A stretch of DNA of 64,000 nucleotides. Origin: Lachnospiraceae bacterium. Its GTDB lineage: Bacteria; Bacillota; Clostridia; Lachnospirales; Lachnospiraceae. The notes beneath the pieces were generated by a model that was given only the letters and a program-made list of their open reading frames with translations, made no database searches and had not been told where the DNA came from. Every line of letters begins with the position of its first letter. Position 1 is the stretch's first letter. Location: positions 126,502 through 190,501 of the forward strand of contig JAAUZK010000010.1 of the NCBI GenBank assembly GCA_014804655.1, given 5' to 3'. Shown here one piece after another: positions 1 through 35,330 of this stretch. The translations under genes and the position numbers were made by a program.

Positions 1-2
1 AA

Positions 3-1430
3 ATTTGTGATCAAATAAAGTATGGTAAAGTTGTTGTTCTTTATGATTCCGTAAAAGAAGCACAGAGGGTAGTAAAAAAGTTGCAAGAGTACAATGCCAA
101 TCTTGTGGGGACTTGCGCGCTAGGAAATGGAAATGATACACAAATTTTGTCAGAGAAATCATTCGCATTAGAAGAGGTATTAGCGAGAGAAAATCAATAC
201 AATATTGTTTTGGCATCTTCAAAAGGATATTATGAAAAAAGCATATTGGATTTGCCTAATATGAATATTGACATTTTTGTTCCATCTGAGGATATATTTT
301 ATTCTTCCTTTCTTGTAATTACGATAGGATATTTGGGATTATATTTGAATAAAGCATTACGTAAGGGTAAAAAAATTATATTGTATGGAACCGAATCCTA
401 CTTTACAAATGCGTGGATGAATTTTTTGCATACTTTGGGAGTAAATTTGGACAAACTGGTAGATAACTGTGAGAATATGCAGAATATGGTTTACAGTGTG
501 TATGAGCTTGCTTATGAGAATCCAAAAGACACATATATAATTATAAACAAGGAGGTAAATAAGTGGTCGGAAGCCTGTGAACTTATAGAAAGTTTAGGTT
601 TTTCAGATTTTAATGAAATGTATACAGGGTTATATGCAGTTTCGTATCGACATCTTCCATATATAACAGATATATCACTTGGATACGTTACATCAGAACT
701 TTTGAAAAATACAGAATGTGAAGGGTTTCGTATATATGGAGAAGTGGGAGAGGAAAAATACAAAATAGTTACATTGGGTGGGTCCACGACTACGTCGGAG
801 GCCTTTAGAGTCCCGTGTTGGCCCGAATTATTGTTTAAGAAATTAATAGAAGAAGGTCATGAAATTGTTATTTATAATGGAGGTGTAGATGGATATACAG
901 CGGCTGATGAGCTACATAAACTAATACGCGACGTAAGCTGTATAAAACCTGATCTGGTCATCAGTTTTTCAGGAATAAATAACCGCAGAAGGTCAGTATA
1001 TCCATATGTATCATCACATTTAATCAATGTTTTTGAGGAAATATGTCATGATGGATTATGTAAGGGACTAAAAAATGAAGTTATGAGCACGGCACAAATT
1101 TGGATACAACAAGAGCAAATGATGCGCGAGATCAGTGAGAATGTCTATAACGCAAAATTTATTTGTTTTGTACAACCTGTATATATCTCTAAGGAGAAAT
1201 TGTTGCCATGGGAACGATTGCAATTTGTAAATGTTGATGGAAATAGGGAGTTTTCCTTAAAATTTAGGAAAGAGGTATCGGAGTTGGCAAAACAATTTGC
1301 TTGGATGGTAGATATGCAGGATTTTTTTGATGAATATCCGGATGTTTTTTTTGACAGTATGCATGTGTATGAAAAAGGCAATCAAATGATAGCGGATGAA
1401 ATATATAATTATATAAAAGAAGGGTTGTAA
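3..1430 (+). CDS. SGNH/GDSL-family hydrolase or acyltransferase with N-terminal Rossmann-like domains (5' partial)
   Basis: The reading frame is open from the first base of the window, so the true start lies upstream; the TTG at 81 is not a convincing start. The C-terminal half (from about position 765) carries the SGNH blocks: block I GGST in VTLGGSTTT, block II NGGVDGYTA, block III SGINN, and the terminal D-x-x-H as DSMH near 1353. Such enzymes remove or transfer O-acyl groups on carbohydrates. The N-terminal part looks like two Rossmann-like segments: one beginning KVVVLYDSVKEA at the window edge and a second beginning KKIILYGTE near 370, the latter resembling the module repeated across this locus. 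The stop lies 7 bases before the carbamoyltransferase start, so the two are probably co-transcribed. Likely role: O-acetylation or deacetylation of the surface glycan. The fold assignment is solid; substrate and direction are inferred. Confidence 0.75.
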   Translation: MCDQIKYGKVVVLYDSVKEAQRVVKKLQEYNANLVGTCALGNGNDTQILSEKSFALEEVLARENQYNIVLASSKGYYEKSILDLPNMNIDIFVPSEDIFYSSFLVITIGYLGLYLNKALRKGKKIILYGTESYFTNAWMNFLHTLGVNLDKLVDNCENMQNMVYSVYELAYENPKDTYIIINKEVNKWSEACELIESLGFSDFNEMYTGLYAVSYRHLPYITDISLGYVTSELLKNTECEGFRIYGEVGEEKYKIVTLGGSTTTSEAFRVPCWPELLFKKLIEEGHEIVIYNGGVDGYTAADELHKLIRDVSCIKPDLVISFSGINNRRRSVYPYVSSHLINVFEEICHDGLCKGLKNEVMSTAQIWIQQEQMMREISENVYNAKFICFVQPVYISKEKLLPWERLQFVNVDGNREFSLKFRKEVSELAKQFAWMVDMQDFFDEYPDVFFDSMHVYEKGNQMIADEIYNYIKEGL

Positions 1431-1437
1431 AATACAA

Positions 1438-3628: not shown

Positions 3629-3661
3629 TATTATGGGAATTGATAGAAGGAAAGGAATAGT

Positions 3662-4573: not shown

Positions 4574-4599
4574 TAGGGAGAGGGGCAGAAGTTAATATA

Positions 4600-5751: not shown

Positions 5752-5774
5752 ATTTGTATAAAAGAGGGGAATTT

Positions 5775-6284
5775 ATGCCAAAGATTTTTTTAATAGGTTG
5801 TATTACGCTTGGTGGTTTGGGTATAGGGGCCTTTTTAGGATGGTATTTCACTGGACATAGATATTGCGTACAAATCAAGCATTTGAGAGAATTATCCGAA
5901 AAGTATCTTATGTGGGTACGATTATATGATATATGGATGATGGATGACGAACGAGGAAGAACAATCGAGGATTATTTAATTGCAAGAGGAAGCAGAAATA
6001 TTGCAATATATGGAATGTCGTACTTAGGGATTCGTCTATGCAGGCGGTTGAAGCAAAGAGGTATCATCAATGTCGAATATGCAATGGACAGCAATCCGCA
6101 GATTGAATTGCCCGATATAGTGATATATTATCCGGGAAGCGAGAAAAGAAATGTGGATTCAGTTATTGTAACTGCAATATATTCTTTTGATGCAATCAGA
6201 GAACGCTTACTTCAAAGAGGATATAAGCATGTATATGCAATAGATGAGATTTTATATGATTTGCTTAAAGATAATGCTGACTGA
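5775..6284 (+). CDS. Membrane-anchored Rossmann-like protein, copy 1
   Basis: I take the ATG at 5775, preceded by AGAGGGG at 5763-5769, rather than an upstream TTG. The 169-residue protein opens with one hydrophobic helix (about residues 3-22, glycine-rich, followed by positive and polar residues), then a helical linker with WVRLYDIWMMDDERGRTIEDYL. A Rossmann-like domain starts at about residue 74 with NIAIYGMSYLG and has an Asp in YAMDSNPQ; it ends with VTAIYSFDAI and AIDEILYDLL. No catalytic domain is attached. Closely similar proteins are at 18178 and 30712, and the nearest relative of its domain is the C-terminus of the adjacent GT4 (6373). I infer a membrane-attached docking or substrate-handling factor for the glycan enzymes. 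Confidence 0.72.
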   Translation: MPKIFLIGCITLGGLGIGAFLGWYFTGHRYCVQIKHLRELSEKYLMWVRLYDIWMMDDERGRTIEDYLIARGSRNIAIYGMSYLGIRLCRRLKQRGIINVEYAMDSNPQIELPDIVIYYPGSEKRNVDSVIVTAIYSFDAIRERLLQRGYKHVYAIDEILYDLLKDNAD

Positions 6285-6372: not shown

Positions 6373-7974
6373 ATGGATGAATTAAATGTTATGTATATAT
6401 GGAATGATACAACGATGGGGGGCGCATCGCAATCCTTATTGGATATGGTAAAAGGTATTCGGAACAAAGTGCAGCCTGTTGTAATTATGAAGGAAAAGAA
6501 TGTAATGGAAGAGTATCTGTCTGCCTTGGGAATTAAATATTATATTGTTCCATTTCCAAGAGATCAATGTCTAATTAATACGGCGACTGTAGGAAGGGCC
6601 GAACAAAATTTTGCAGATGATTATGAAGCAGCCTTAAAACTTATAGAAATTATACATAAAGAAAATATAAGGTTAATCCATATAAATTCCAGTACTGGCA
6701 ATGTGGGGGCTATTACGGCATTGATGATGAAAATACCATATGTATGGCATATAAGGGAATTTTTAGAGGAAGATTTTGGATGTGAATTTTTGGACAAGAA
6801 ATTGAAAGGTGAATTGTTTTCCAGAGCAAGTACACTTGTGGCCATATCAGATTGCGTTCAGCAGTCTTACATAAGAAAATATCAAGTAACCCCAGTTCGG
6901 ATATATAATGGGATAGATATAAATAAATTTAAGAAAGAGCTAAAGAGTACTATAATTTCAAAGTCAATTTTTTTGTTTGCAGGAATGATCACACCTGAAA
7001 AGGGGCAGTTTGATGCAATTAAAGCAGTTGAACTTATGATTAATAGGGGATATAGAGACATTAGGTTGAATATTGTAGGAGATGGTAGAGAAAATTATGT
7101 TGCAAGTTTAAAAAAGTATGTTTTAGAAAGAAGATTGGAGAATAATATTCGATTTTTTCCATTTCAAAAAGATTTAGCCAATTTTAGGGAAGAAGCAACC
7201 TATTCTATTACAGGGTCAAAATATGAAGCGCTTGGCAGAACCACGATAGAAGCAATGTTGGCCGGAAACATAGTAATAGGGGCCGATACAGGAGGAACAA
7301 GAGAAATCATAGGAGAAGCGCAGGAAAGAGGGTATTTATACAGGCAAGGTGATTACAAAAATTTAGCTGAAATAATGCAGAAAGCAATGGAGGAGCCGAT
7401 TGATAGTAAGATGAAGCGGCGAATGTATGCTCAGGAATATGCAACAGTTACTTTTGATTTACAGAATTACTGCGCAGAAATAATTACATTGTATGAAAAC
7501 ATTCTAAATAAAAAAAGCAATTTGAGTAGTGATCTGTTTTTATTTCAATTGCAGAAACGCTATACAGAGATAGAGAATAAACGTTATAAAAGATTAGAAG
7601 CGACATTCGGGCAGACCTCACAATGGTTACATATCAGACAGAGCGGTTATTCTCTTTCATCTTACTTTGAGAATCATAATATAAAGGAAATAGCTATTTA
7701 TGGAATGGCATATTTAGGATGGAGTTTATACAATGAACTAAAAAACAGTTCTATAAAAATAAGCTATGTAATGGACAGAAATTCTGGTGCAGTTGGAGAT
7801 TCGCTTATGTTGATTAATCCGGATGACGAGCTACTTCCTAAAGTGGACGCAATAGTAGTGACAGTGGTATCACAGCAGGAAGAATTGGTTCGATGGCTGA
7901 AAACCAGATGTTCGTATTGTGTGATTGGTCTGATAGAGATCCTGAATTCTGTTTATGCAGCTATAGAAGATTGA
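6373..7974 (+). CDS. Glycosyltransferase family 4 with C-terminal Rossmann-like domain
   Basis: A 533-residue protein with two parts. Residues 1 to about 385 are a GT-B fold GT4 enzyme: GGASQSLLDMV near the N-terminus, the IRIYNGIDINKF-type donor-domain opening, FAGMITPEKGQ, and the E-x7-E donor motif in YEALGRTTIEAM near residue 284. A helical linker (QWLHIRQSGYSLSSYFENH) then leads into a Rossmann-like domain from about residue 438 (EIAIYGMAYLG ... YVMDRNSG ... VDAIVVTVVS). Linker and domain closely resemble those of the membrane-anchored proteins at 5775 and 30712. The enzyme probably transfers a sugar to a lipid-linked acceptor at the inner membrane face; the extra domain may recruit it there. 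GT assignment is firm, the role of the tail is inference. Confidence 0.88.
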   Translation: MDELNVMYIWNDTTMGGASQSLLDMVKGIRNKVQPVVIMKEKNVMEEYLSALGIKYYIVPFPRDQCLINTATVGRAEQNFADDYEAALKLIEIIHKENIRLIHINSSTGNVGAITALMMKIPYVWHIREFLEEDFGCEFLDKKLKGELFSRASTLVAISDCVQQSYIRKYQVTPVRIYNGIDINKFKKELKSTIISKSIFLFAGMITPEKGQFDAIKAVELMINRGYRDIRLNIVGDGRENYVASLKKYVLERRLENNIRFFPFQKDLANFREEATYSITGSKYEALGRTTIEAMLAGNIVIGADTGGTREIIGEAQERGYLYRQGDYKNLAEIMQKAMEEPIDSKMKRRMYAQEYATVTFDLQNYCAEIITLYENILNKKSNLSSDLFLFQLQKRYTEIENKRYKRLEATFGQTSQWLHIRQSGYSLSSYFENHNIKEIAIYGMAYLGWSLYNELKNSSIKISYVMDRNSGAVGDSLMLINPDDELLPKVDAIVVTVVSQQEELVRWLKTRCSYCVIGLIEILNSVYAAIED

Positions 7975-9188: not shown

Positions 9189-9261
9189 AATTTATTTTTT
9201 GAAATACACGGAACGAATGACCAGAAAGAGCTTATGTCGAACTGGGGGAGGGGTTAAGGAA

Positions 9262-10404
9262 ATGAATCAAATTATTATATACGGAGCGGGAATGATCGGA
9301 AGACGATACTATGATTTTTTTAAATCACTCCATATGGAAGACATTATATATGCCTATTGTGATAGAAATTATAAAGAAATAAAATCTATAGGTGAAGTTC
9401 CGGTATATTCATATGATGATTTGAAGAATGTGGGATATCCTTTTGTAATCGCTCTGATAGAACAAGAAGAGGTTTGTGTACAACTCCAGAATGATGCACA
9501 GACATATTATGACAGCGTTGAAAGCTGGATTAAGAATTATCAAGGGAATGATAATGATCCAATAAGGATGTGCGCGGTCTATCGTAATATGGAACGGAAA
9601 GTAAATGGTGGTATAGAAAATGAAAATAGATTGGATAATCTAGATAAAGAAATATATGCGTCAATACCTGACTTGAATTTGGATAAAGCAGTAAAAATAT
9701 ATGGCGGGATTTGTCCCTGTTGCAAAGAGAAGACACTTTTTATAGCATACGACCACTGGTTAAGAGATTATTATAAGTGCTTATTTTGTGGAAGCATTCC
9801 AAGGCAAAGGGCGCTTATGAAGGTACTAGAGAGGGAAATGCCAAATTGGAAAGATATGAAAATACATGAAAGTTCACCAAGCGGAAATATTTTGCGTATT
9901 TTTAAGAAACAGTGTGCACAATATACATATTCTTATTGGTATGAGAATGAAGCATTAGGTGTAGAATTACAAAATGGTGGTATAAACGAGAATTTGGAAA
10001 ATTTAACATTTGAAAATGAAACGTTTGATATTTTCATCACACAGGATGTTTTAGAACATGTAAACCATCCGGAAAAAGTTTTGACGGAGATAGCCCGGAC
10101 CCTTAAAAAGGGTGGCAAACATATTTTTACTACACCGTTATATCCGTTTAAAAAGACAATTCCCAGAATAAAAATGGAAGGAGATAAAAGAGAGCTTATT
10201 TTGCCGCCGATTTATCATGGGAATCCAATTAGTGGAGAGGGATCATTAGTAACATATGAATGGGGCGGATATGATTTTCTTGAAATGATTGATGAGAGCA
10301 CGGGCATGGAATCTAAGATAGTAGAATTTCCAAATAGTAAAGAAAATTTCGAAAATGGACTGGAGGGAGATTTCCTGCAAGTTATTGTCTCCACGAAGGT
10401 ATAA
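9262..10404 (+). CDS. Rossmann-like domain fused to a zinc-ribbon class I methyltransferase
   Basis: The ATG at 9262 is chosen because GGGGGAGGGG at 9244-9253 is well placed; an in-frame TTG at 9199 would overlap the previous gene's tail. The 380-residue protein starts with the repeated module (QIIIYGAGMIGRRYYDFF ... YAYCDRNYKE). Next is a four-cysteine zinc-ribbon-like segment (CPCC near residue 151, CLFCG near 172), then a Methyltransf_11-type SAM domain with FDIFITQDVLEHV near 260 and LKKGGKHIFTTPL. A sister gene with the same three-part order, now frameshifted, is at 25232. It probably methylates a nucleotide- or lipid-linked sugar. The stop at 10402-10404 falls directly at the edge of an IS110 remnant. 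Confidence 0.82.
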   Translation: MNQIIIYGAGMIGRRYYDFFKSLHMEDIIYAYCDRNYKEIKSIGEVPVYSYDDLKNVGYPFVIALIEQEEVCVQLQNDAQTYYDSVESWIKNYQGNDNDPIRMCAVYRNMERKVNGGIENENRLDNLDKEIYASIPDLNLDKAVKIYGGICPCCKEKTLFIAYDHWLRDYYKCLFCGSIPRQRALMKVLEREMPNWKDMKIHESSPSGNILRIFKKQCAQYTYSYWYENEALGVELQNGGINENLENLTFENETFDIFITQDVLEHVNHPEKVLTEIARTLKKGGKHIFTTPLYPFKKTIPRIKMEGDKRELILPPIYHGNPISGEGSLVTYEWGGYDFLEMIDESTGMESKIVEFPNSKENFENGLEGDFLQVIVSTKV

Positions 10405-15034: not shown

Positions 15035-16165
15035 ATGAAAGAAGACAGAAAATATTATATATATGGTGCCGGACGTAATGGTTTGCTGCTATTATCAATT
15101 ATGCGGAAACTGACATTGGGAGTAGAGGCATTTATTGATCGGGATATAAATAAGCGGGGGAGATTTTGCGGCATCAAATGTATTTCCTTAGAAGATGCAT
15201 CTGCGCAATTGCAGTCGGTGATTATTCTAATTTCTGTTGATCAAAGCGAGGGAATTGAGGAAGAACTAAGAAGTTATAATTTTGAAACTATATATAATCT
15301 TGGAAAAATTCTCTCTAAGCTACACTTTTTTTTCCCTTTGACTACGTGCGATGAGGATTATAAAAGAGTAGCCCCCTTTAATTACTATGAGTCACCATAT
15401 CCAGATATAATAGAAGTACATAAGAATGAAGAAAAGATATTTGAGAATAAAGAGGTAAAAGAAATTGATTTTAATTTGGATCGGCAATTTGAGTTACTGG
15501 ATGCTTTTGCTTCTATACCGCTTTTGAAATGGGATAAAAATCCCATAGAAAAATTAAGATATTATTCTGATAATAATTATTTCACGATAGGGTGCGCACA
15601 CATATTACAGTGCATGATGTGTACCGTAAGGCCAAAAAGAATTATAGAAGTCGGTTCAGGATTTTCAACGGCAGTTATGCTTGATACCAATGAGCATTGC
15701 TTAAATAATAATATACATATTTCTTCAGTTGAGCCCTATCCGGATCGATTGAAGAGTTTGCTACGTCCGACGGACAAAATATGTATATATGAAAAACGGC
15801 TGGAAGATATGCCGCTAGATTACTTTGAATGTCTGGATGAAAATGATATTTTGTTTATAGATTCATCCCATATATCGAAAATTAATTCGGATGTTAACTA
15901 TATTTTTTTTGAAATATTACCAAGATTGAAAAGAGGTGTATACATTCACTTCCATGATATTTTTTACCCGTTTATTTATCCGAAATCGTGGATATATGAA
16001 GGACGGGCTTATAATGAAATGTATATGCTTAGGACATTTCTTATGAACAATAAAAAGTATAAAATACAATTATTTCCGGACATGTTGGTTAAAGAGAATT
16101 ATAGGAAAGGGTGTGGGATGTTGAATAGTAGTAGAATTAATAGTATATATTTAAGAAAAGAATAG
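15035..16165 (+). CDS. Rossmann-like domain fused to a class I SAM methyltransferase
   Basis: A 376-residue protein. The first ~110 residues are the repeated module (YIYGAGRNGLLLL ... EAFIDRDINKRG ... VIILISVDQ). After a spacer the SAM-binding domain begins near residue 204 with IIEVGSGFSTAVM, then SVEPYPDR, an acidic ILFIDSSH near 276 and HFHDIFYPF near 305. The arrangement resembles Methyltransf_24-type enzymes, several of which depend on a metal ion held by the Asp and His residues. It probably O-methylates a glycan sugar or precursor. AAGGGGAAGG lies upstream of the ATG. The domain assignment is good, the substrate is not known. Confidence 0.8.
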   Translation: MKEDRKYYIYGAGRNGLLLLSIMRKLTLGVEAFIDRDINKRGRFCGIKCISLEDASAQLQSVIILISVDQSEGIEEELRSYNFETIYNLGKILSKLHFFFPLTTCDEDYKRVAPFNYYESPYPDIIEVHKNEEKIFENKEVKEIDFNLDRQFELLDAFASIPLLKWDKNPIEKLRYYSDNNYFTIGCAHILQCMMCTVRPKRIIEVGSGFSTAVMLDTNEHCLNNNIHISSVEPYPDRLKSLLRPTDKICIYEKRLEDMPLDYFECLDENDILFIDSSHISKINSDVNYIFFEILPRLKRGVYIHFHDIFYPFIYPKSWIYEGRAYNEMYMLRTFLMNNKKYKIQLFPDMLVKENYRKGCGMLNSSRINSIYLRKE

Positions 16166-18177: not shown

Positions 18178-18687
18178 ATGATTCTATTTTTATGGGTAGC
18201 TAGTTGCATTGTATGTGTACTTCTGGGGCACTATTTGGGGGATAGGAAGATAAAGAAAAAAGTGAGATCAATACTTAGCAAAAAAACTGAGCGACAAGTG
18301 GCATCTGATTATAGAGCGGATTTATTAAATAAATGGCTTGTTGCTGAAAAAAAGAACATAAATATTTTATCCATTTTCAATAATATAGAAACAGAGAATA
18401 TAGGAATATATGGCTATGGGATTGCGGGAAAACAGTTGGTCAATGATATGAAAGATGCCCAAATTAAGATCACATGCATTATTGATAGAAATGCACATAA
18501 TTTAGGATGCGATTATCCGATTTATACATTGGATGATGAATTGCCGGAATTAGATATGATTATTGTTACCAGTGTGAATTTGAATGAAGTAAAAAATCAT
18601 ATTAAACAAGAAAATTGTAAAATAATTTTATTGAGAGACATTTTAGAATTAGCTATAGAACGAGAACAGAGGAGTGGGGGAAAATGA
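18178..18687 (+). CDS. Membrane-anchored Rossmann-like protein, copy 2
   Basis: A 169-residue protein with an N-terminal hydrophobic helix (about residues 1-18, ILFLWVASCIVCVLLG) followed by a strongly basic stretch (DRKIKKKVRSILSKK), as expected for an N-out/C-in anchor. A helical linker with NKWLVAEKKNINILSIF precedes the Rossmann-like domain from about residue 74 (NIGIYGYGIAGKQL, CIIDRNAHNLG, LDDELPELDMIIVTS, ILLRDILEL). There is no catalytic extension. It is the second of three such anchors (also 5775 and 30712), and each lies beside a GT4 gene. Function inferred as for copy 1. Confidence 0.72.
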   Translation: MILFLWVASCIVCVLLGHYLGDRKIKKKVRSILSKKTERQVASDYRADLLNKWLVAEKKNINILSIFNNIETENIGIYGYGIAGKQLVNDMKDAQIKITCIIDRNAHNLGCDYPIYTLDDELPELDMIIVTSVNLNEVKNHIKQENCKIILLRDILELAIEREQRSGGK

Positions 18688-19441: not shown

Positions 19442-19446
19442 GGCTT

Positions 19447-20150: not shown

Positions 20151-21107
20151 ATGTATATAAATAATGACATTGATTACTTAAAATTTTTAAAAGATAAAAA
20201 GGTGATTATATTTGGCGCGGGAAGACAGGGGCAAAAAGTTCTTTGGGATTTGAGCAAGCATGATATTGTAACGGTTGCTTTTTGTGATAATGATGTTAAA
20301 AAACAAAATCAGTTGATAAGAGGTGTTAAGATAATATCATTTGACGAACTTTTGAAAGTAAATGATGTAGATACAATGATTATAATTAGTACTTTTGAGC
20401 GGGAATTGAAAAAACAGTTGTTAATGAACAAAGTATATAATTTTATTTTGGCAACGCAGATTGACTTTGGCGGTGGTGAAGAGTATTACGATGAACAGTA
20501 TTTCAAGTGGCAGCAAAGTATGGGTGAATTTGGATCCCAAATTAAAGTAAACATGTTTAAGCCATATATTAAGAAAGATATGACTGTTGTTGAATTTGGA
20601 AGTGGAGGTGGGTATCTGCTTGCTTTAATCGATGCAAAAGAGAAAATCGGGATAGAAATTAATGATTCAGCTCGTGAGGCAGCGAAAGAAATTGGAATTA
20701 AAAGTGTGAAAAATATAAAGGATTTACCTGACAATTTTGCGGATGTCATAATATCGACAAGTGTATTAGAACATGTAGAAAATCCACTGGGAGCTTTGCG
20801 GGAATTACATAATAAGTTAAAAAAAGATGGAAAAATAATCTTTCATGTCCCCAATGAGTCTTGTGATACAGAATATACAAGGAGTGATGTGAACAATCAC
20901 TTTTATACGTGGAATTGCCTAAATATTGGTAATCTTTTTAAGGCGGCGGGATATTTTGTGCAGTCTGTTCAAAAGATACAGGAAATATGGCCGGAGAATT
21001 GTTTTGAAGTTGCGAAGGAAGTAAGTCCAGTATTGTTTGATTCGCTTTGTAGTATAGGAGGTAAGGCGTTTGATGCGAATAGGTGTTTAATAGTAGCATG
21101 CAAATGA
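20151..21107 (+). CDS. Rossmann-like domain fused to a class I methyltransferase (type 11)
   Basis: A 318-residue protein starting at the ATG at 20151, with GGGAGG ten bases upstream (an ATG at 20144 hits a stop within six codons). Residues 17 to about 115 are the repeated module (KVIIFGAGRQGQKVL ... VAFCDNDVKKQ ... MIIISTF). The SAM domain starts near residue 146 with VVEFGSGGGYLLALI, then GIEINDSAREAA, ADVIISTSVLEHV near 204 and LKKDGKIIFHVP. A sugar or lipid-linked sugar is the likely substrate. Confidence 0.83.
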   Translation: MYINNDIDYLKFLKDKKVIIFGAGRQGQKVLWDLSKHDIVTVAFCDNDVKKQNQLIRGVKIISFDELLKVNDVDTMIIISTFERELKKQLLMNKVYNFILATQIDFGGGEEYYDEQYFKWQQSMGEFGSQIKVNMFKPYIKKDMTVVEFGSGGGYLLALIDAKEKIGIEINDSAREAAKEIGIKSVKNIKDLPDNFADVIISTSVLEHVENPLGALRELHNKLKKDGKIIFHVPNESCDTEYTRSDVNNHFYTWNCLNIGNLFKAAGYFVQSVQKIQEIWPENCFEVAKEVSPVLFDSLCSIGGKAFDANRCLIVACK

Positions 21108-24734: not shown

Positions 24735-25190
24735 TGATTCCGATCTGGGCAGTGGCGGGGAAACATCTGACGGATCATCAGGGTGAGGAATCTGGGAATA
24801 GTGGGACGATTATTCTGGATGCCACCTGCGCTCCCCCAGAACATCAGTTATCCGCCGGATGTAAATTTCCTGAATGAGACAAGGGAAAACCTTGAAAGAG
24901 TGATCGACAGGGGAAAGGATGTAGCACCCGTGGAGTTTGGGATGAAACTTGACTTGAGCATCGGTGAAAACGGAATGGTACGTCTGGAAAGACTTTCGTT
25001 TGCTACCTACAATGAATCCGATGTATTGGTCGGCACCATAGAAAGATATAAGGAACGGATCGGTCATTATTCGCAGAGGGTACTTGTGGACAAGAGCTAT
25101 CGGAACAGGGAGAATATGGTGTTCTGTAGACAGCATGGATTTATGCTGACATTTATGCAAAATAACCACTGTGAAGTTTTGTCTGTTTAA
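24735..25190 (+). pseudogene. IS5-type DDE transposase remnant
   Basis: Around 24790-24830 the frame reading SGTIILDATCAP carries the first catalytic Asp of IS5-type transposases. One extra C in the run near 24832-24836 shifts into the frame NISYPPDVNFLNETRENLE, the expected continuation. Then VEFGMKLDLSIGENG, LVGTIERYKERIGHY and VLVDKSYRNRENMVFC follow, but the segment that should lie between NLERVIDR and VEFGMKL is deleted, and the C-terminus ends early. The element is dead. It lies between two modular glycan genes and contrasts with them in its higher GC content. No clear terminal inverted repeats were found. Confidence 0.75.
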
Positions 25191-25231: not shown

Positions 25232-26264
25232 ATGAGCAATAAGGCCTTGAGCTTTATCTATGGAGCTGGTAAATATGGGAAATTATTACTTCAGTGTTTT
25301 AGGGACTTAATGGAAATAGATTATTTTGTTCAGACTGAAGAACCAGTTGTGAAAGAAATAGAAAAAATTCCTGTGATTTCATTTGAAAGAATGATAAAAA
25401 TGAAGGGGCTAAAAATTGTTCTTATTGCAATGGGTAACAAAAAAATAGCCTACGAAGTCGGAATGAATATTTATAATGCTGACAGTGCGAATATTAAAGT
25501 TTATTATTGTGGCAATTTTATTGAGGATAATTTGCTGATGGAAAGTAAAATTCATTTGACCGGTGATAAATATTGCATTGTATGCGGAAACAGTTTTAAA
25601 GAATTTTTGCCCGCAGGAATAAGTGAGAAGATATTTAATAAGTACCATATTATTGGGGGGGCATAGAAACAATTGCATATGTCCATGTTGTGGAGCTTGG
25701 GATAGAGAGAGATGGCTTTATTATGTTTTACAAAATAAGACAGACATTTCCCAAATGTCTGGCAGAATACTTCATTTTGCACCGGAAAAAGGTATTATAA
25801 ATTATATAAAGAAAAATGAGCGGATTGATTATTATACAGCGGATATCGTTTCAGGACGGGCTATGCATGTGACAGATATTACGGACATTCAATATAGAGA
25901 AGGCACTTTTGATTATGTTATTAGTAATCATGTTTTGGAACATATAGTTGATGAAAAGAAAGCTGTGAATGAAATTAAGCGAGTGTTGAAGAAAAATGGT
26001 AAATGGATTTTCTCTTTTCCAATCTGTACCGATATAACAACATATGAGGATCCAGCAATTGTTTCATATGAAGCCAGATTAGCGGCATATGGACAGAGTG
26101 ATCATGTGCGATTATATGGATATGATTATAAAACCAGATTTGAGAAATATGGATTTGAATTACAAGTTTTTAGTCCTGAGAAGGAGATTGATACAATATG
26201 TATCAAAAAATATGGATTTATTAAAGATGATGTAATTATTGTGGCAACTAAAATGTCCAAATAA
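25232..26264 (+). pseudogene. Rossmann-like/zinc-ribbon/methyltransferase fusion gene, frameshifted at a G7 tract
   Basis: Two adjoining frames, 25232-25666 and the tail to 26264, form one broken gene. The first encodes the repeated module (SFIYGAGKYGKLLL) and the first zinc-ribbon pair (CIVCG, near 25577). The second continues with CPCCGAWDRERWLYYVL, FAPEKGI, FDYVISNHVLEHI and LKKNGKWIFSFPI. Removing one G from the seven at 25655-25661 restores a continuous frame (IIGGHRNNCICPCC). The intact design is that of the gene at 9262, where the same domains are continuous. GGAGG precedes the ATG. The indel may be decay, sequencing error, or a slippage switch. Confidence 0.82.
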
Positions 26265-26363: not shown

Positions 26364-26612
26364 ATGATTAAAGATTCGGAACTAATGAAAGAGAATACGC
26401 CATTATTTGAAAATAAACTTGTAATATGGGGAGTGGGCGAACAGGGATGCATATTATATAATGATATTATTCATATGGGGAGGCAAGAAAGGTGTTTTTG
26501 TGTGTGACTCAAACATTCTTTTGCAAGGTAAAGAAATTATAAAAGCATTTTTCATTACTTGCTTGTGTCTTGAGCGAAGGAATGGTAACAATTATGAACA
26601 GTCAAGCCTAAA
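26364..26612 (+). pseudogene. Truncated, frameshifted duplicate of the gene at 7998 (N-terminal module only)
   Basis: The ATG at 26364 starts IKDSELMKENTPLFENKLVIWG, nearly a copy of the beginning of the sulfotransferase-like gene at 7998 (VKDLELMKNITPLFEKRLVIWG). After HMGRQERCFCV the frame stops, but in a shifted frame KKGVFVCDSNILLQGKEI continues the similarity, and a further shift gives VLSEG. Nothing of the sulfotransferase domain remains before the IS110 copy starts at about 26650. The piece is best explained as a locus duplication destroyed by an IS-linked rearrangement. Confidence 0.72.
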
Positions 26613-27632: not shown

Positions 27633-27689
27633 GAGGTGGTACCTCCCTTTCATAAAGTCTGATACCGTGATGTCCACCATCGATTATCA

Positions 27690-27912: not shown

Positions 27913-29016
27913 ATGAAACAAATAACGGAAGGTAAAGTATATAAAAGCATAGAAAAGTATGTTGGGAATGAAAAGAAATTGTTTATTATTTATCCCTATG
28001 GAAACAGGGGGAAGATGGTGGAGCAGATATTGCGAGAAACCTATAATATTCAGAATTGTGTGCTTGCAGACAATCAGCCGACAAAAGAAAATATTTTATC
28101 GGTAAACCAACTGAGCGATTTGCAAGGAGATTATGTTTTATTGCTTTGCTCAGATAACCCAAGGATCTATCAGGAAATTCGAGTAAACCTGAAAGATAAA
28201 TTTTATGGTGAGATATGTGATCTTGCAGAAGTGGATGATGATGAAGTTGTATACGAACCATTTTATTTTAAGAATTATAAAATGCAGATAGAAGAAGTAA
28301 ATTCAGAACAGATTAAGCAGGTTTTCGCACGGACGAAAAGAGCATGGGAGAAACTTGGCAAAGAAGAACCTTATTTTTCTGTGATAACACATGATGAAAT
28401 GAAAACAGAAAATTTGACAGAAGAGGTAATTTCAAGGTTTTTCCAGAGCGGTAATCTAAAAACAATTGAGATTATAAGTTCCCTGAAAAGAAATGGAGTG
28501 AGTAACCTTGAAAGGTTGAGCGTTTTGGAATTAGGATGTGGATGTGGACGCATTACCAAGAGTCTTGCCCGGAATTTTGGACATGTTGATGCGGTGGACA
28601 TTTCGGAGGGTAATCTGAGAATTGCCAGGGAGCATATTAAAGACACGAATGTGGATTTCTTTTTAATGAAAGAGGTTGAAGATTATTTGAAACTCCCTCA
28701 GGCGGATATCATATATTCGTTTATTGTATTACAGCATAATTGCCCTCCTGTTATAGAATATATATTGAACGTTATGATGAATAAGGTAAATCCCAATGGC
28801 ATTCTTATGTTCCAGGTTCCGACTTATTATTGGGGGTATACTTTCTGTTACGAAGAGTATATGAGTCAGCCAGAGGGGATGGAGATGCATTGTTTCCCAC
28901 AAAACAGGATATTTGAACTTGCATATGAGAATCAGTGTATTCCATTAGAAGTATATCCTTATTTATGTACTGGACGACAAGATCATTCAATGATGTTTAT
29001 TTTCAGGAAAAAATAG
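27913..29016 (+). CDS. Divergent Rossmann-like domain fused to a class I SAM methyltransferase
   Basis: A 367-residue protein. Residues about 15-115 look like a divergent copy of the repeated module, with FIIYPYGNRGKMVEQIL in place of the usual glycine loop and CVLADNQPTKEN at the second strand. The catalytic part begins near residue 205 with VLELGCGCGRITKSLA, then VDAVDISEGNLRIA, ADIIYSFIVLQHN and VNPNGILMFQVPTYYWG, a Methyltransf_12/25-like SAM domain. It is the first intact gene after the IS110 scar; its promoter may now lie in or near the element. Substrate unknown. Confidence 0.8.
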   Translation: MKQITEGKVYKSIEKYVGNEKKLFIIYPYGNRGKMVEQILRETYNIQNCVLADNQPTKENILSVNQLSDLQGDYVLLLCSDNPRIYQEIRVNLKDKFYGEICDLAEVDDDEVVYEPFYFKNYKMQIEEVNSEQIKQVFARTKRAWEKLGKEEPYFSVITHDEMKTENLTEEVISRFFQSGNLKTIEIISSLKRNGVSNLERLSVLELGCGCGRITKSLARNFGHVDAVDISEGNLRIAREHIKDTNVDFFLMKEVEDYLKLPQADIIYSFIVLQHNCPPVIEYILNVMMNKVNPNGILMFQVPTYYWGYTFCYEEYMSQPEGMEMHCFPQNRIFELAYENQCIPLEVYPYLCTGRQDHSMMFIFRKK

Positions 29017-29032: not shown

Positions 29033-29473
29033 ATGTCAAAGAAATTTTATACTGAGGATGTTATGGCATCTATAAAAAAGCAAATAAAGGATGAGAATAT
29101 TCCAGTTAGGGAGCAGTATTTAGCCAGTGGGTATTATGAAAGGAAAATGACGGAATATCGAAAACAAAAAGAAATTGTGATATTTGGCTCTGGAAATTAC
29201 GGAAGAGATTTATATAAAATGTTAAAAATTGAAGGTATTCGTTCTGTGAAATGTTTTTGTGATAACGGAGGGGCAAGGCAGGGGAGAGAATTTGGCGGAC
29301 TTGATATTCTGTCACCACAGGAGGCTGTTGAAAGGTTTCCAGAAGCCATGTATATTATTACTCCGAGGGGGTGGGGAGATGAAATATTAAGGCAGTTAGT
29401 GGATATAGGGATTAATGTGCTGCAAATATCGGTTTTTGTTTTAGAATTGGCAGAATTAACAGAGCGATTATGA
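29033..29473 (+). CDS. Stand-alone Rossmann-like protein (soluble)
   Basis: The ATG at 29033 has GGAGAG 8 bases upstream and is preferred to the GTG at 29027. The 146-residue protein has a charged helical N-terminus of about 42 residues and then the repeated module alone (EIVIFGSGNYGRDLY, KCFCDNGGARQG, LDILSPQEAV, MYIITPRGWGDEI). It has no membrane anchor and no catalytic domain, unlike the three anchored forms. It may compete with or bridge the fused modules, or serve a neighbouring enzyme in trans. Function unknown. Confidence 0.72.
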   Translation: MSKKFYTEDVMASIKKQIKDENIPVREQYLASGYYERKMTEYRKQKEIVIFGSGNYGRDLYKMLKIEGIRSVKCFCDNGGARQGREFGGLDILSPQEAVERFPEAMYIITPRGWGDEILRQLVDIGINVLQISVFVLELAELTERL

Positions 29474-29525: not shown

Positions 29526-30710
29526 ATGAAAGAAAATAAGATTGTGTTTGTGGTGCAAAGATATGGAATGGAGGTGAACGGTGGGGCAGAATATCATTGT
29601 CGTGTTTTGGCGGAACACTTGACGGAGAGATATGATGTGGATGTTTTTACAAGCTGTGCAAGGGATTATATGCCATGGGATAACCATTATTCGGCCGGCT
29701 CATATATGCTAAATGGTGTTACGGTATACAGATTTCCCGTTGAAAGAACAAAGGATGAAGGACGTGTGCTTGAATTGTCAGCTAGAGTAAACCATGGGGA
29801 TCAGGATGCGGAGAAGGAATGGATTGATGAAGTAGGACCTTATTGTCCCCAATTGATTGCTGCTTTAAAAGATAGAGCGGCCCTATATAAAGCGGTCATC
29901 TTTTTCGGATATAATTTTTATCCCGCCGTAGTTGGACTGCAGTTAGGATTGGAGCATACGATACTTATTCCCACGGCTCATGATGAATCAAATATTTACA
30001 AAGACATATGCCGCAGGACTTTCCATGCCGCAAAGGCTTTTTTATATAACAGCGTGGAGGAGAGGCAGTTTTTAATTGATAAGTTTGATACCGGAACCAG
30101 GCCTGGGCGGCTGACTTGTGTAGGGATTGATTTGCCGGATGTAAGTCAGGCGGAAATGCCAAGGGGATACGAACATTGTCATGATTATGTTATTTATGTT
30201 GGTAGAGTTGCCAGAGGGAAGAACTTCAGACAGTTAAACAGGTATTTTATCCAATATAAGAGGGAACATAATACGGACTTAAAATTGTTGGTGGTAGGGC
30301 GAGTGGATAATGAAGAGAAGCTTGCCTATCATGATGACATTATTTATGCAGGGTATGTTTCGGAAGATGATAAGACGCTTTTTATGAAAAATGCTAAACT
30401 TTTAATTATGCCTTCCATGTATGAAAGCCTGTCACTGGTCATTCTTGAAAGTATGGCATTAGGAAGACCCGTATTGGTGAATGAAGACTGTGCAGTCTTG
30501 AAGGGACAGTGTATTAGGAGCAATGCAGGGCTTTATTATTCAAACTATACAGAATTTGAGAGAGCCTTGGACTATATGCTTACAGATAAGGAAGTTTATT
30601 CCCAGATGGCAGAGAATGGGGTGGAATTTGTGAGAAATAATTATAGCTGGCAGTATGTTGTTGAAAACGTAAGTTCATTAATCGAAGAAATAGGAAAGGA
30701 GAATGAGTAA
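29526..30710 (+). CDS. Glycosyltransferase family 4
   Basis: A 394-residue GT-B enzyme with VVQRYGMEVNGGAEYHCR at the N-terminus (GGAE acceptor loop), PTAHDESNIY, donor-domain DYVIYVGRVARGKNF, LLVVGRVDNEEKLAY and YESLSLVILESMALG (E-x7-E) near residue 299. It is of the mannosyl/galactosyltransferase-like GT4 type, but the donor cannot be read. Its stop overlaps the first possible ATG of the next gene, which encodes the third membrane-anchored Rossmann-like protein, repeating the pairing of GT4 with anchor seen elsewhere in the locus. Confidence 0.9.
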   Translation: MKENKIVFVVQRYGMEVNGGAEYHCRVLAEHLTERYDVDVFTSCARDYMPWDNHYSAGSYMLNGVTVYRFPVERTKDEGRVLELSARVNHGDQDAEKEWIDEVGPYCPQLIAALKDRAALYKAVIFFGYNFYPAVVGLQLGLEHTILIPTAHDESNIYKDICRRTFHAAKAFLYNSVEERQFLIDKFDTGTRPGRLTCVGIDLPDVSQAEMPRGYEHCHDYVIYVGRVARGKNFRQLNRYFIQYKREHNTDLKLLVVGRVDNEEKLAYHDDIIYAGYVSEDDKTLFMKNAKLLIMPSMYESLSLVILESMALGRPVLVNEDCAVLKGQCIRSNAGLYYSNYTEFERALDYMLTDKEVYSQMAENGVEFVRNNYSWQYVVENVSSLIEEIGKENE

Positions 30711-30711
30711 T

Positions 30712-31188
30712 ATGAAAAAAGGAGTAGTTGCTGCATTATTCGCTGTAGGAGGAGCGGTTTTAGGAGCCGCAGGAGTAGGCAAAACTATGAAGGAGAAGGT
30801 TGATTATAAGTCAAAAATGTCTGAAAAGCATTTGTCTTTATATCTCTTGATGAACCAATGGGTAAAAGTTAAACAAGAGAATAAATCAATTGCTGATTAC
30901 CTAGAAGGGAATGGCTACAAAGAGATCGCTATTTATGGAATGAATTATGTCGGTGAGACCTTGCTGGATGAACTGACCAATTCAAATGTAAAAGTAAAAT
31001 ATGCGATTGATAAAAATGCTAATACCATTTATTCAGATGTCGATATTGTAACACCGGATGATGAGTTGGCGGAAGTTGATGCAGTTATTGTTACTGCAAT
31101 AACATTTTTTGATGAAATTGAAGAAAATTTATTGGAAAAGATGGATTGTCCCATCTTATCAATGGAAGATATTTTATATGAGGTATAA
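30712..31188 (+). CDS. Membrane-anchored Rossmann-like protein, copy 3
   Basis: Two ATGs are possible, 30703 and 30712; GGAG at 30698-30701 has workable spacing only for 30712, giving 158 residues. An N-terminal Ala/Gly-rich hydrophobic helix (VVAALFAVGGAVLGAAG) is followed by KTMKEKVDYK, a helical linker LLMNQWVKVKQENKSIADYL and the Rossmann-like module from about residue 69 (EIAIYGMNYVGETL, YAIDKNANTI, PDDELAEVDAVIVTAI, SMEDILYEV). Linker and module are close to those of copy 1 and of the GT4 C-terminus at 6373. It probably tethers partner enzymes to the membrane; that is inference. Confidence 0.73.
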   Translation: MKKGVVAALFAVGGAVLGAAGVGKTMKEKVDYKSKMSEKHLSLYLLMNQWVKVKQENKSIADYLEGNGYKEIAIYGMNYVGETLLDELTNSNVKVKYAIDKNANTIYSDVDIVTPDDELAEVDAVIVTAITFFDEIEENLLEKMDCPILSMEDILYEV

Positions 31189-31341: not shown

Positions 31342-32481
31342 ATGATAACACATAATGCATCGGTTGATAATTTTATAGAATATATTAAAGATAAAGATAT
31401 CTATATATACGGCGTGGGAGATTTCTATCGGAGACTGTCCAGAAAAGTAATTTATCAGGATATCCATAAAAGAGTTGTAGGTTATATTGATAATGGAAAA
31501 AAAGGGGAAATAATTCATATTTTAGGACAGGAATATAATATTCATGGAGTGGATTTTTTAAAGTCGGTTATAAGTGGTGTAGTCCTGCTGTGCGGGACGA
31601 CATATCTTGATGAAATGTACAGACAGCTTATTTCACAAAATCTGCAAGATGAAATAGAATGTTTTATTATGCCGTTAATTTGGCTTGTTTCAGATGGTAA
31701 AGACGATCCGGAAATAGCGAGTTGTCTGAATCGGAAAAGCCATTCACAATCAATTATGCATAATATAATAGAAAAGAAAATTCATTGTTTTTGGTTTAGT
31801 GGGGAAAAAAAACCGGAGAAATATCAGAAGTGTATTGACACATGGAAAGGTGTATGTCCGGATTATGAGATTATTGAATGGAATGCAGATTCTTATGATT
31901 GTGGAAAGAATCTATTTGTTAAACAGGCATACGAAAAAAAGAAATGGGCATTTGTATCGGATTATGCACGACTTGACGTGATTTATCATTATGGCGGGAT
32001 ATATTTAGATATGGATGTTGAGTTGCTTAGGGATTTTGCACCTTTTCTTCAATTCGACGCTTTTTTTAATTATGGAATGCGGCATATGATTGAACTTGGT
32101 TCAGGATTTGGAAGTGTGAAAAATAATCCTTTTATTGGATCTCTGCTGGAACTATATGAGGATACAGCATTTTTGGATAAGGATGGGCAACCACAAATTA
32201 CAAAGTTTGTCCAACCGGTATGGATAAATGATAGATTTAGCAAAGAAGGGTTTTGGATGAATGGCGATATGCAGCTTGTAAATAATATGCTTATACTTCC
32301 GCGCAGGTTTTATACACCCAAAGACGATTTCTTTTTATATAATTATTTACAGTGTGAAGAAACCAGAGGAATTCATCATTTTAATTCTGAGTGGCAGCCA
32401 CATAAATATTTTGAGCAGAGGAAAAGTGCGGCAAAGTGGATAAACATTGTAGAAAAGCAGTGGTTGGAAAAATATCGGTAG
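31342..32481 (+). CDS. Rossmann-like domain fused to a GT32-type glycosyltransferase
   Basis: A 379-residue protein. The first ~110 residues are a variant of the module (DIYIYGVGDFYRRLS, VGYIDNGKKG, VVLLCGTTYLDEM). The second part is a DXD glycosyltransferase of the Gly_transf_sug/OCH1 type: KKIHCFWFSGEKKPEKY, CIDTWKGVCPDYEIIEWN, FVSDYARLDVIYHYGGIYLDMDVEL with the DMD metal motif near residue 222, and NPFIGSLLELY. Such enzymes add hexoses in capsule and teichoic-type glycans and are cytoplasmic here. The Shine-Dalgarno is weak (GGCGGA). Family call is strong. Confidence 0.87.
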   Translation: MITHNASVDNFIEYIKDKDIYIYGVGDFYRRLSRKVIYQDIHKRVVGYIDNGKKGEIIHILGQEYNIHGVDFLKSVISGVVLLCGTTYLDEMYRQLISQNLQDEIECFIMPLIWLVSDGKDDPEIASCLNRKSHSQSIMHNIIEKKIHCFWFSGEKKPEKYQKCIDTWKGVCPDYEIIEWNADSYDCGKNLFVKQAYEKKKWAFVSDYARLDVIYHYGGIYLDMDVELLRDFAPFLQFDAFFNYGMRHMIELGSGFGSVKNNPFIGSLLELYEDTAFLDKDGQPQITKFVQPVWINDRFSKEGFWMNGDMQLVNNMLILPRRFYTPKDDFFLYNYLQCEETRGIHHFNSEWQPHKYFEQRKSAAKWINIVEKQWLEKYR

Positions 32482-32646
32482 AAAAAAGACGGTTTTTCTA
32501 TTCAAGGTATTTAGACTCTGGCATAATATAAAAATAATGATTCGCTGCTTGTAGGAATCTATCCAAATATTGAAAATGAGATTCTGCCGCAGATATCGGA
32601 GCTTTTACTGAAGGCTGATACTAGGTCTTTTAACAAAATTGTAACT

Positions 32647-34218
32647 GTGCGGGAATTGGATTATATGATATTAAAAAAAATAACAAGGGAGAATATCACA
32701 GATCTATCTGATAAGCAAATTTGTATTTTTGAAAAGTCGGTTGCTTATTTAGAGGAATTATGCGTTCAATATAATGTCTTAGAAATGGTTTCTTTTATAG
32801 TGGACACTAATGAACGTAATATAGGGGAATTTGTATTTCGTGATAGACTATTAGAAGTATTTAGGCTGGACAAACTATTGAGTATTGATCCACAACAAAC
32901 TGTTATAGTAATTACCAGCGACTACTATAAAGAAGCATATGAGAAAATTATACATATCCTTGAAGCGAAGAGATGTGATATAAATGTATATTATTTTGCC
33001 AATCAAGAGACAGAATATGAAGAAGAATATCGTATACATTATAAGAGAACAGAATTGGAAAACATCATTGTATTCCGAAGCGGCCCCCATGCATCTTCTT
33101 ATGTGCGGGGTATGGACTTCGCAGATAATGCGAGAGCTTTATTTGAATATGCACTGCAAATAGGATTGAATTATACATATGAATTAGTATGGATTGTGAA
33201 GAATCCGGAAGAATATAAACGATATGATTCCGTAGATAATGTGAGCTTTGTATCTTTTGACTGGTCAGTTTCTGAAGATCAGACGGAACGTGCCGCATAT
33301 TATCGGGTCTTATGTCTTGCTAAATATCTGTTTTTTACAGATGCTTATGGTTTTGCCAGAAATTGCAGGAAAGATCAGATTAGGGTGCAGTTATGGCATG
33401 GTTGTGGTTTCAAGACAAGAGTGAATTTTGTACGTTGTGAAAAGCGGTATGAGTATACGACCGTTATTAGTGATTTGTATGCAGATATTCATGCAGATAT
33501 TTATGGGCTCAGAAGAGATCAGGTTCTTGTGACAGGATATGCGAAGGAAGACTGGCTTTTTCATCCGGACGGAACGGACAAACAGAAGCTACGTTTACCA
33601 CAGGCAGAACAATATATTTTTTGGCTACCCACTTTTCGGTCTACAGAACAGAAACTAGCGCAATTAAATGAGTATGAGCTGGAATCTGAAACCGGTCTGC
33701 CGATTGTGGACACACTGTATAAACTGAAAAGACTGGACGATATTTTAAAGCAGAACGATATTGTTCTTATTGTGAAACTGCACCCTTTTCAGAATAGGGA
33801 TGGTATAGATTGTGGGAAGTGCAGTCATATACAATTGCTCGAAAATGCCGAACTGGCTGAACAGGATATTCCGATTAATCGGTTGCTTGGAATGGCGGAC
33901 GCTCTGATCAGTGATTATTCTTCGGCAGCGGTGGATTATATGTTATTGGACAGACCGATTGCATTTATGTTGGAAGATGTAGAAGAATATAAACAGAGCC
34001 GTGGATTTGTTTTTGACAATATTAGGGAATGGCTTCCGGGAAAAGAGATATTTACATTTGAGGATCTATGTACTTTTGTGGAAGAAGTTGCGAATCGGTG
34101 TGATATAACGGCGGAGAAAAGACGTGGCTTGAGAAAGCGGATGCATAAGTATTGTGATGATCATAACTGCCAGAGAATATTGGAGATGGTTAATATCCTG
34201 CCAAGGGAGAATTCTTGA
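32647..34218 (+). CDS. CDP-glycerol/CDP-polyol phosphotransferase (TagF/TagB family) with degenerate N-terminal module
   Basis: The C-terminal ~380 residues match the Glyphos_transf family: RVQLWHGCGFKTR near residue 250, VTGYAKEDWLF, FWLPTFRS, IVKLHPFQN near 378 and ALISDYSSAAVDYMLLDRP near 422. These enzymes move glycerol phosphate or ribitol phosphate from the CDP form onto a membrane-linked acceptor. The N-terminal ~110 residues (KQICIFEKSVAYLEEL ... VIVITSDY) look like an eroded copy of the module with its glycine loop lost. The start is uncertain: GTG 32647 or ATG 32665. The CDP-pentitol genes downstream (36131, 36849) could supply its substrate. Activity call good, polyol type inferred. 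Confidence 0.85.
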   Translation: MRELDYMILKKITRENITDLSDKQICIFEKSVAYLEELCVQYNVLEMVSFIVDTNERNIGEFVFRDRLLEVFRLDKLLSIDPQQTVIVITSDYYKEAYEKIIHILEAKRCDINVYYFANQETEYEEEYRIHYKRTELENIIVFRSGPHASSYVRGMDFADNARALFEYALQIGLNYTYELVWIVKNPEEYKRYDSVDNVSFVSFDWSVSEDQTERAAYYRVLCLAKYLFFTDAYGFARNCRKDQIRVQLWHGCGFKTRVNFVRCEKRYEYTTVISDLYADIHADIYGLRRDQVLVTGYAKEDWLFHPDGTDKQKLRLPQAEQYIFWLPTFRSTEQKLAQLNEYELESETGLPIVDTLYKLKRLDDILKQNDIVLIVKLHPFQNRDGIDCGKCSHIQLLENAELAEQDIPINRLLGMADALISDYSSAAVDYMLLDRPIAFMLEDVEEYKQSRGFVFDNIREWLPGKEIFTFEDLCTFVEEVANRCDITAEKRRGLRKRMHKYCDDHNCQRILEMVNILPRENS

Positions 34219-34265
34219 ATGAAGGTCATCAATACTATGCAGAGGTTTTGTAGTCTGGGAGTGGG

Positions 34266-35330
34266 GTGGCAGGCTTGGAAAAGAAATATGATAATTGTAT
34301 ATCGCTTGGTTGGTTTTGCGGTACAGCCTCTTCCATGGGACGTTGTGGGTTGCGCAAACATTCAGGACCTTTTGATTGGTATTTTTCTGATCTTGAATCT
34401 GTTTTAAAAGTGATGGAGAAGGATTTTACTGATTTTATGAAAAAAGAAAATCTTTTGGTCGATAAAAATGATAATACAGTGTTTTATGACACAAAATATG
34501 GATTTTGCTGCAACCACGATATTAGTTTTGATTTTGAAAAGGAATATCCATTGATTTATGAAAAATATATGCGAAGGTCAGAACGATTTCTTCATGATGT
34601 GCAATTTCCAACCTGTTTCATACGAGCAGTAAGGTCGGAAAAGGAGATTCAGTTTATAGAGGAAAATGAAAGTTATATTTATAGAATAGTAAAGAGGGGA
34701 AATTCTGATAATGAAATCATATTTTTGTTGTTAAAGGGTATGCGGAACTTATCAGATAAATGTAAGTTTCAATGGTTTCGATTGGGTATAACAAGATATG
34801 TTGGAAATATTTATGAAATGCGAACTATGTTTGAATCCTCTGAATCTTTTTTAAAATATTGTAGGGAAAGTATTCTAACAGAAGAGGTTATCAAACGTAA
34901 TATAGAATTTGATAAAGAACACTTGTATATAAGCGACAAGTTTAATGTTTTTATAAATAGATTGGCTAAGGAAAATTATAATATAATACCTATATTAAAG
35001 GATTATTATCCGGGTATTGATCGCGAGGGAGTGTTTCTTTGGGGAATGGGAACATATGGAACATTGATGGTGCAGTATCTATTAAAAAATACGATAAAGG
35101 TAAATGGAATCATTGATAATAATCCCAATAAAATAGGAACTTGTTTTGCGGGCATCCCAATTGTTGCGTTTTCGGAAATAGAGTCAGACAGACCCAATAT
35201 TTTTATTTCAATCAAATCGGAACAGTCAATAGATGAGATTATAGAGCAAATTTCTGCGAGATATTTGGATGCCAGAGTATATAAAATGGCAGATTTGTTT
35301 GAGCATCCAATAATATCGCAAATGTTATAG
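34266..35330 (+). CDS. DUF1796 putative cysteine peptidase fused to a C-terminal Rossmann-like domain
   Basis: The N-terminal ~230 residues match DUF1796, a papain-like family: NCISLGWFCGTASSMGR, GPFDWYFSDLESVLKVM, FCCNHDISFDF, FIRAVRSEKEI. From about residue 257 the repeated module follows (VFLWGMGTYGTLMVQYL, NGIIDNNPNKIG, NIFISIKSEQS, KMADLFEHP). DUF1796 proteins occur in bacterial surface polysaccharide loci and their real activity is not settled. The start is a GTG at 34266 (a TTG at 34275 is an alternative) behind GGGAGTGGGG. It is the last gene of the island, followed by a strong palindrome. Confidence 0.8.
   Translation: MAGLEKKYDNCISLGWFCGTASSMGRCGLRKHSGPFDWYFSDLESVLKVMEKDFTDFMKKENLLVDKNDNTVFYDTKYGFCCNHDISFDFEKEYPLIYEKYMRRSERFLHDVQFPTCFIRAVRSEKEIQFIEENESYIYRIVKRGNSDNEIIFLLLKGMRNLSDKCKFQWFRLGITRYVGNIYEMRTMFESSESFLKYCRESILTEEVIKRNIEFDKEHLYISDKFNVFINRLAKENYNIIPILKDYYPGIDREGVFLWGMGTYGTLMVQYLLKNTIKVNGIIDNNPNKIGTCFAGIPIVAFSEIESDRPNIFISIKSEQSIDEIIEQISARYLDARVYKMADLFEHPIISQML

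Follow-up and report, generated by a model that had tools for sequence, protein, structure and literature searches.

A portable Rossmann module recurs across the enzymes of a Lachnospiraceae glycan island and co-occurs with flagellin

It is an open question how a bacterium gets many different enzymes to act in turn on a protein shortly before its export, and a portable domain shared by the enzymes of one pathway would give a direct handle on it. A stretch of 64,000 nucleotides from a Lachnospiraceae bacterium (GenBank assembly GCA_014804655.1, contig JAAUZK010000010.1, positions 126,502 to 190,501, forward strand), hereafter the window, contains a glycan island of 32 genes in which one Rossmann-type module appears again and again. 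What is this module, and why should enzymes of such different kinds carry it? The reading we favour, tentatively, is that a portable module of nucleotide-binding type has been attached repeatedly to flagellin-glycosylation enzymes, and would pair them or let them share one nucleotide signal.

Homology, fold and partners of the module

The first-pass annotation had described the module as repeated across the island and fused to nearly every enzyme class. Fifteen of the copies it named were cut out and aligned as a seed set (genes are named here by their start positions in the window). In leave-one-out searches, 13 of the 15 copies were recovered when held out, each scoring E ≤ 0.0022 (for 1,000 sequences) and outscoring all of 300 shuffles; the modules of 23580 and 31342 failed with window copies alone. 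A model that drew on no window sequence, only on copies from other loci (some of these in the window's own genome), recovered all 15 seed copies, including 23580 (E = 7.6e-13) and 31342 (E = 3.6e-7). It also recovered the copy at 32647 that had been called eroded (E = 8.5e-4) and an unlisted copy in a GDSL-like protein (E = 4.9e-5), giving 17 of 32 island genes with a recognisable module. With a 126-copy model, none of 2,215 reversed decoys reached E < 1. These results confirm that the repeat is real and that its copies are homologous. Unrelated Rossmann folds alike by chance, which the two leave-one-out failures might have suggested, were rejected on the leave-one-out and window-free searches, and their probability is negligible. 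The partners are diverse, as the annotation held, but "nearly every enzyme class" is too strong, because the other 15 island genes carry no recognisable copy; among these are both family 2 glycosyltransferases (GT2), four of the five GT4 genes, and the GT11, WbsX, FkbM and carbamoyltransferase genes.

The predicted structure of the module is a Rossmann domain of about 90 residues (predicted local distance difference test, pLDDT, 94.6). Fold comparison placed it nearest to the CapD-type structure 3nkl, WeeI/PerB, Rex and the WbaP regulatory domain, and VioB and PerB, whose structures were solved with nucleotide sugars, were among the closest; Foldseek alone gave no match below E 0.001. Profile searches returned weak PglD_N and NeuD-type matches to the module, and WbaP entries at E 0.11-0.12; one with the anchored solo family (modules standing alone in membrane-type proteins) found no solved relative (best E 0.045). 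Among the 17 window proteins, the curated cut-off for PglD_N (PF17836, 23.4 bits) was passed by one (12597, 23.6 bits), with 9262 and 25232 matching below it and the other 14 giving no row at E ≤ 1. The cut-off for CoA_binding (PF02629, 22.3 bits) was passed by two (12597, 26.7 bits; 20151, 23.3 bits), with 34266 below it. The WbaP family PF13727 gave no row at E ≤ 1 for any of the 17 in the Pfam tables. Judged from the predicted model, the module shares the fold of the WbaP-type regulatory domain. Model, fold comparison and conservation together reveal the PglD_N-like feature of a Rossmann fold with a glycine loop and an acidic residue. The PglD_N-like fusion to a left-handed beta-helix acetyltransferase was absent from the Pfam partners in the window, which were glycosyltransferases, methyltransferases, radical S-adenosylmethionine (SAM) proteins, DUF268 and others. 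The first two loop glycines and the Asp, which follows strand 2, are retained in most of 680 divergent copies. The glycine loop and the Asp point to a nucleotide or a nucleotide sugar as ligand.

Clustering of what remains of 582 proteins without the module gave 90 clusters, 35 with a single member; the clusters are BLAST components at E < 1e-6, and separate ones could be distantly related. Among 123 module proteins, the Pfam partners met most often at E ≤ 1e-5 were GT2 (19), FkbM (9), Methyltransf_11 (8), radical SAM (7), GT4 (6), RgpF (5) and DUF268 (5), a ranking that covers 25 of 49 families. Within one GT4 cluster, the module stands at the C-terminal end in 16 members and at the N-terminal end in 14. 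In the structural model of the GT4 fusion 6373, the glycosyltransferase part is followed by a 37-residue helix and then by the module (mean pLDDT 85.8, low at 470-480). A tree was built from 673 copies, 584 of which have a known partner. Partner identity switches on it no fewer than 158 times; the minimum, with one clade per state, would be 30, and shuffled labels give a mean of 372. The tree is weak (about 88 columns), and since many of its branches are poorly supported, the change counts are rough figures and the 158 is likely an over-count; collapsing weak branches left the counts unchanged, and we do not rely on that result. Locus identity on the same tree was near random (614 changes versus 621.5). 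Recent tandem duplication inside the island was therefore not supported, since copies of the same locus are scarcely closer to each other than chance (60 shuffles: 615-629). The proposal that the module is a common adapter fits the number of partner clusters, its placement at either end of GT4 proteins and the frequent partner changes on this weak tree.

Spread across genomes and association with flagellin

The window's genome has 24 module matches at E ≤ 0.001, including a second cluster on contig C4, and 17 of the 18 other genomes of its genus have a match, 15 of them at least five. In a draw of 298 genomes from 280 genera of the family, 254 had at least one match at E ≤ 1e-6 and 61 had at least five; these counts are lower bounds, because scoring stopped at 17 candidates per genome. 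Of 299 genomes drawn from the phylum, the window's family included, 90 had a match at E ≤ 1e-8 (just one match in 60 of these), and eight genomes of other families had at least five. Additionally, loci were collected with the anchored solo form as bait, extending at most 10 kb on each side. At least three module copies occurred in 79 of the best 80 of 89 such loci, a copy number biased by the bait. The titles were mostly Lachnospiraceae, with Acetatifactor muris DSM 23669 among them, and the anchored solo copies are conserved in the window's relatives. Loci with three or more copies, which the annotation had suggested seeking with a profile, thus exist in many genomes, and the fusions do co-occur elsewhere. 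Two of the loci (L080 and L104) carry the anchored module under the titles Muribaculaceae and Bacteroides, and are perhaps wrongly binned Lachnospiraceae contigs.

Flagellin was found in 153 of the 298 family genomes. All 68 genomes with at least four module matches were flagellin-positive, and none of the 145 flagellin-less genomes reached that number (Fisher p = 1.6e-24, kinship ignored). Among genomes with at least 20 GT2 candidates (first-look numbers per genome, with at most 11 candidates scored), at least four module matches occurred in 61 of 108 flagellated genomes versus 0 of 50 flagellin-less ones. Because none of these 50 GT2-rich genomes reached four matches, a lack of glycan genes does not explain the association. 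The window's genome itself has six flagellin matches. All eight other-family genomes with at least five modules were also positive, which says little because 248 of the 299 genomes in that draw were positive too.

Gene order links the module to flagellin in some genomes. In G318, FliD, FliS, flagellin, a PF01973 (Maf-type) protein, NeuB and a cytidylyltransferase are followed by a TagF-like gene and module enzymes. Similarly, modules, PF01973 and flagellin lie in line in G511, G621, G411 and G487, from three other families, with about 10 to 16 kb between modules and flagellin; these four are among the matches listed for flagellin position, which did not extend to G615, G354, G418, G447 and G496. 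PF01973 was present in 9 of 18 genomes tested. These results indicate that module-rich islands are most likely flagellin-glycosylation islands. Flagellin is probably the shared acceptor of the module enzymes, since the many-copy genomes are all flagellated and some clusters adjoin flagellin or Maf genes.

A TagF-like family recurs in module islands as a second marker, either as a protein of its own of about 425-460 residues or fused to a second part, with a length of about 820-850 residues. It was found at E ≤ 1e-30 in 60 of the 298 family genomes, all 60 of which have flagellin, and in 41 of the 61 genomes with at least five modules. In G046, G059 and G271, the gene lies at most about 5 kb from a flagellin gene. 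The copy in the window's genome (C10:103187-104536, L014:6665-8038) lies some 22 kb upstream of where the window begins.

Module copies and neighbouring genes in the window

All module copies in the window lie on the plus strand. Copies fused to glycosyltransferase-type enzymes are the C-terminal module of the GT4 protein 6373-7974 (7669..7917, E = 5.5e-14), the N-terminal module of the Gly_transf_sug (GT32-type, PF04488) protein 31342-32481 (31387..31659) and the eroded N-terminal module of the CDP-glycerol (cytidine diphosphate glycerol) transferase-like protein 32647-34218 (PF04464; 32770..32988). Methyltransferases carry N-terminal modules in 9199/9262-10404 (Methyltransf_11; 9256..9495, E = 1.3e-14), 15035-16165 (Methyltransf_24; 15035..15313, E = 3.7e-18), 20151-21107 (Methyltransf_23; 20190..20459, E = 6.4e-19) and 27913-29016 (27970..28221, E = 3.2e-6), the last with Pro in place of the first loop glycine. 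Further N-terminal modules belong to the NKWYS-family protein 7998-9188 (PF10364; 8046..8348, E = 4.6e-11), which had been called sulfotransferase-like, the radical SAM protein 12597-13820 (PF04055; 12603..12878, E = 2.2e-17) and the DUF268 protein 23580-24632 (PF03269; 23580..23831). The DUF1796 protein 34266-35330 (PF08795) has a C-terminal module (35031..35270, E = 5.8e-17). The copy that the annotation had missed lies at 357..611 inside the GDSL-like protein (open reading frame 3-1430, with its start upstream of the window).

Solo membrane-type proteins lie at 5754/5775-6284, with a hydrophobic N terminus (module 5985..6257, E = 6.7e-16), at 18178-18687 (18388..18645, E = 2.2e-14) and at 30703-31188 (30910..31182, E = 1.8e-21), the last conserved in relatives. 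The solo protein 29027/29033-29473 (29159..29428, E = 1.5e-22) lacks a hydrophobic N terminus by reading. At 25232-26264, a paralogue of 9262, the module half 25232-25666 (25253..25501, E = 3.8e-11) and the methyltransferase half 25623-26264 lie in different frames, indicating a frameshifted gene or an assembly error. The copy reported as broken at 26364 (26364..26580) was identified by three-frame reading as the start of a 7998-like module gene in shifted frames. Remnants of IS110-type transposases lie inside the island at 10440-11138 and 26656-27680, the second split over two open reading frames and adjoining this broken gene.

Inside the island, an orphan open reading frame of 135 residues at 24783-25190 has no Pfam match. 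A ribulose-phosphate epimerase, an IspD-type cytidylyltransferase and a zinc alcohol dehydrogenase are consecutive at 35437-37904, a row that would fit a CDP-pentitol route. Upstream of the window (L014:8112-11771, L015:7067-7573) lie genes for an inositol-monophosphatase-type protein, a PAPS (3'-phosphoadenosine 5'-phosphosulfate) reductase-domain protein, a fusion of GTPase and adenosine 5'-phosphosulfate (APS) kinase, and a second APS kinase. Because these sulfate-activation genes lie near an island with sulfotransferase-like genes, they suggest a sulfated glycan. In other genera, a pair of module-bearing genes recurs (L036:6315-9853, L042:4935-8676, L044:9323-12962), consisting of a TIM-barrel isomerase-like protein and a protein of 749-811 residues with a cytidylyltransferase-like end (by Pfam in L036, by reading in L042 and L044).

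Mechanism, rival readings and known systems

Under the reading we favour, a Rossmann module of the PglD/PerB, CapD/PglF and WbaP kind would have been attached repeatedly to island enzymes in Lachnospiraceae and some other Clostridia. Each copy may bind a nucleotide or nucleotide sugar, and copies would pair with other copies through the module, keeping successive flagellin-modifying enzymes together. Solo anchored copies, in the window's lineage, would hold part of the assembly at the membrane, and the paired enzymes may respond to one common nucleotide signal. Attachment at either end, the variety of enzymes and the solo copies argue for a ligand or partner common to the pathway, not for each enzyme's private substrate, and pairing with a nucleotide response is favoured because the WbaP domain is the nearest model. 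A further step, possible though doubtful, is that the module is a homotypic docking domain, so that any enzyme acquiring it would join a flagellin-decorating assembly partly membrane-anchored by solo copies, islands would vary their glycan by swapping plug-bearing enzymes, and a nucleotide would set assembly or activity.

Several observations weigh against the favoured reading, and some of them would suit a module that belongs to surface-polysaccharide islands generally, with the flagellin link reflecting only lineage or genome richness. Pfam scans of the island's 32 genes turned up neither flagellin nor FliS nor Maf, and PF01973 had no match in the window's genome. The window's island is thus assigned to flagellin glycosylation by association only, and this remains its most likely role. 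A Maf-based island in the window's genus was rejected, with no PF01973 match in the window's genome (G000), G005, G006, G007, G008 or G012 and one partial match in G013. BLAST detected no flagellin in any of the 80 anchored-solo loci within their flanks. The associated genomes share ancestry and are not phylogenetically independent, and nine flagellin-less genomes have three module matches. Linkage was judged against a null in which each flagellin gene counts as an independent place and genome sizes are rounded. Only 4 of the 13 low-contig genomes had flagellin no more than 15 kb from the module cluster (null mean 0.98, P = 0.012), and 6 had it at up to 50 kb (null mean 2.21, P = 0.011); of the rest, four had no flagellin on the cluster contig and three had it 91 to 445 kb away. 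Some counted matches, single ones especially, may be Rex- or CapD-type Rossmann proteins, and the second loop glycine is kept in only 5 of 41 anchored solo copies. Even so, the surface-polysaccharide explanation is improbable, given the contrast between flagellated and flagellin-less GT2-rich genomes and the cases, spread over several families, in which modules are linked to flagellin and Maf genes. Against it, too, Pfam scans of all 32 island genes, several of which have no Pfam match at all, found no flippase, polymerase, exporter or phosphoglycosyl transferase families; a capsule or exopolysaccharide locus of Wzx/Wzy or ABC type was rejected for want of exporter, polymerase and initiating transferase families in these scans.

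The module might instead be purely a plug linking the enzymes with one another, with flagellin or with the flagellin chaperone, its nucleotide binding being vestigial. Position independence and the range of partner clusters would agree with this, as would the conserved anchored solo copies and the helix, not a floppy linker, between the two parts of 6373. FlmG of Caulobacter crescentus offers a precedent, being reported as a flagellin glycosyltransferase of the cytoplasm that binds flagellin through a domain of its own (PMC7591256). Such a plug should have no need of the first two glycines and the Asp that most copies keep, and we consider pure docking unlikely. Alternatively, the module may bind a nucleotide-linked sugar, donor or acceptor, for its fused enzyme, as in PglD and PerB; the nucleotide-sugar structures among its closest folds and the weak PglD_N and NeuD-type matches speak for this. 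Glycosyltransferases, however, have their own donor site, solo copies have no enzyme to serve, and members of one GT4 cluster differ in the end at which they carry the module; such donor or acceptor binding is likewise unlikely. A module shared by the enzymes of one pathway would be a predictor of membership in that pathway. It would also help to spot probable flagellin-glycosylation islands in commensals of the gut, bacteria whose flagellins come into contact with host immunity. If the plug interpretation were true, the module could become a part for building glycan pathways.

Among known systems, cohesin/dockerin and polyketide docking domains are analogues of the module read as a homotypic docking domain. 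The N-terminal domain of CapD/PglF (3nkl) is part of a dehydratase and, unlike the module, not a portable unit there, and that of PglD/PerB/VioB (PF17836) has a left-handed beta-helix acetyltransferase as its partner; most window module proteins fall below the cut-offs of both PF17836 and CoA_binding. The WbaP domain (PF13727, found in large phosphoglycosyl transferases and classed as of unknown function) sits on a single type of enzyme, together with a predicted four-helix bundle in the membrane, and matches the module at most weakly in sequence, as given above. According to the WbaP study, this domain makes most of the dimer contacts, UMP, UDP and UTP (uridine mono-, di- and triphosphate) are named as likely stabilising ligands, and nucleotide-sensing regulation is proposed (PMC10942596). 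The flagellin-binding domain of FlmG is a tetratricopeptide repeat domain on one enzyme. In the type A locus of Clostridioides difficile, CD0244 is described as acting on flagellin glycan, and so is one part of Pseudomonas aeruginosa FgtA; the descriptions are of TagF-like or phosphotransferase proteins (PMC10714395). By description only, they resemble the TagF-like gene, alone or in its two-part form of about 850 residues, of the genomes studied here; the available portion of that paper mentions no shared Rossmann module in these loci. No description of a portable module shared across a pathway was found in open-licence papers. The fold and the type of island are of known kinds, and what is new, as far as the searches go, is a portable module common to the enzymes of one pathway. 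The co-occurrence of module-rich genomes with flagellin is likewise a new observation.
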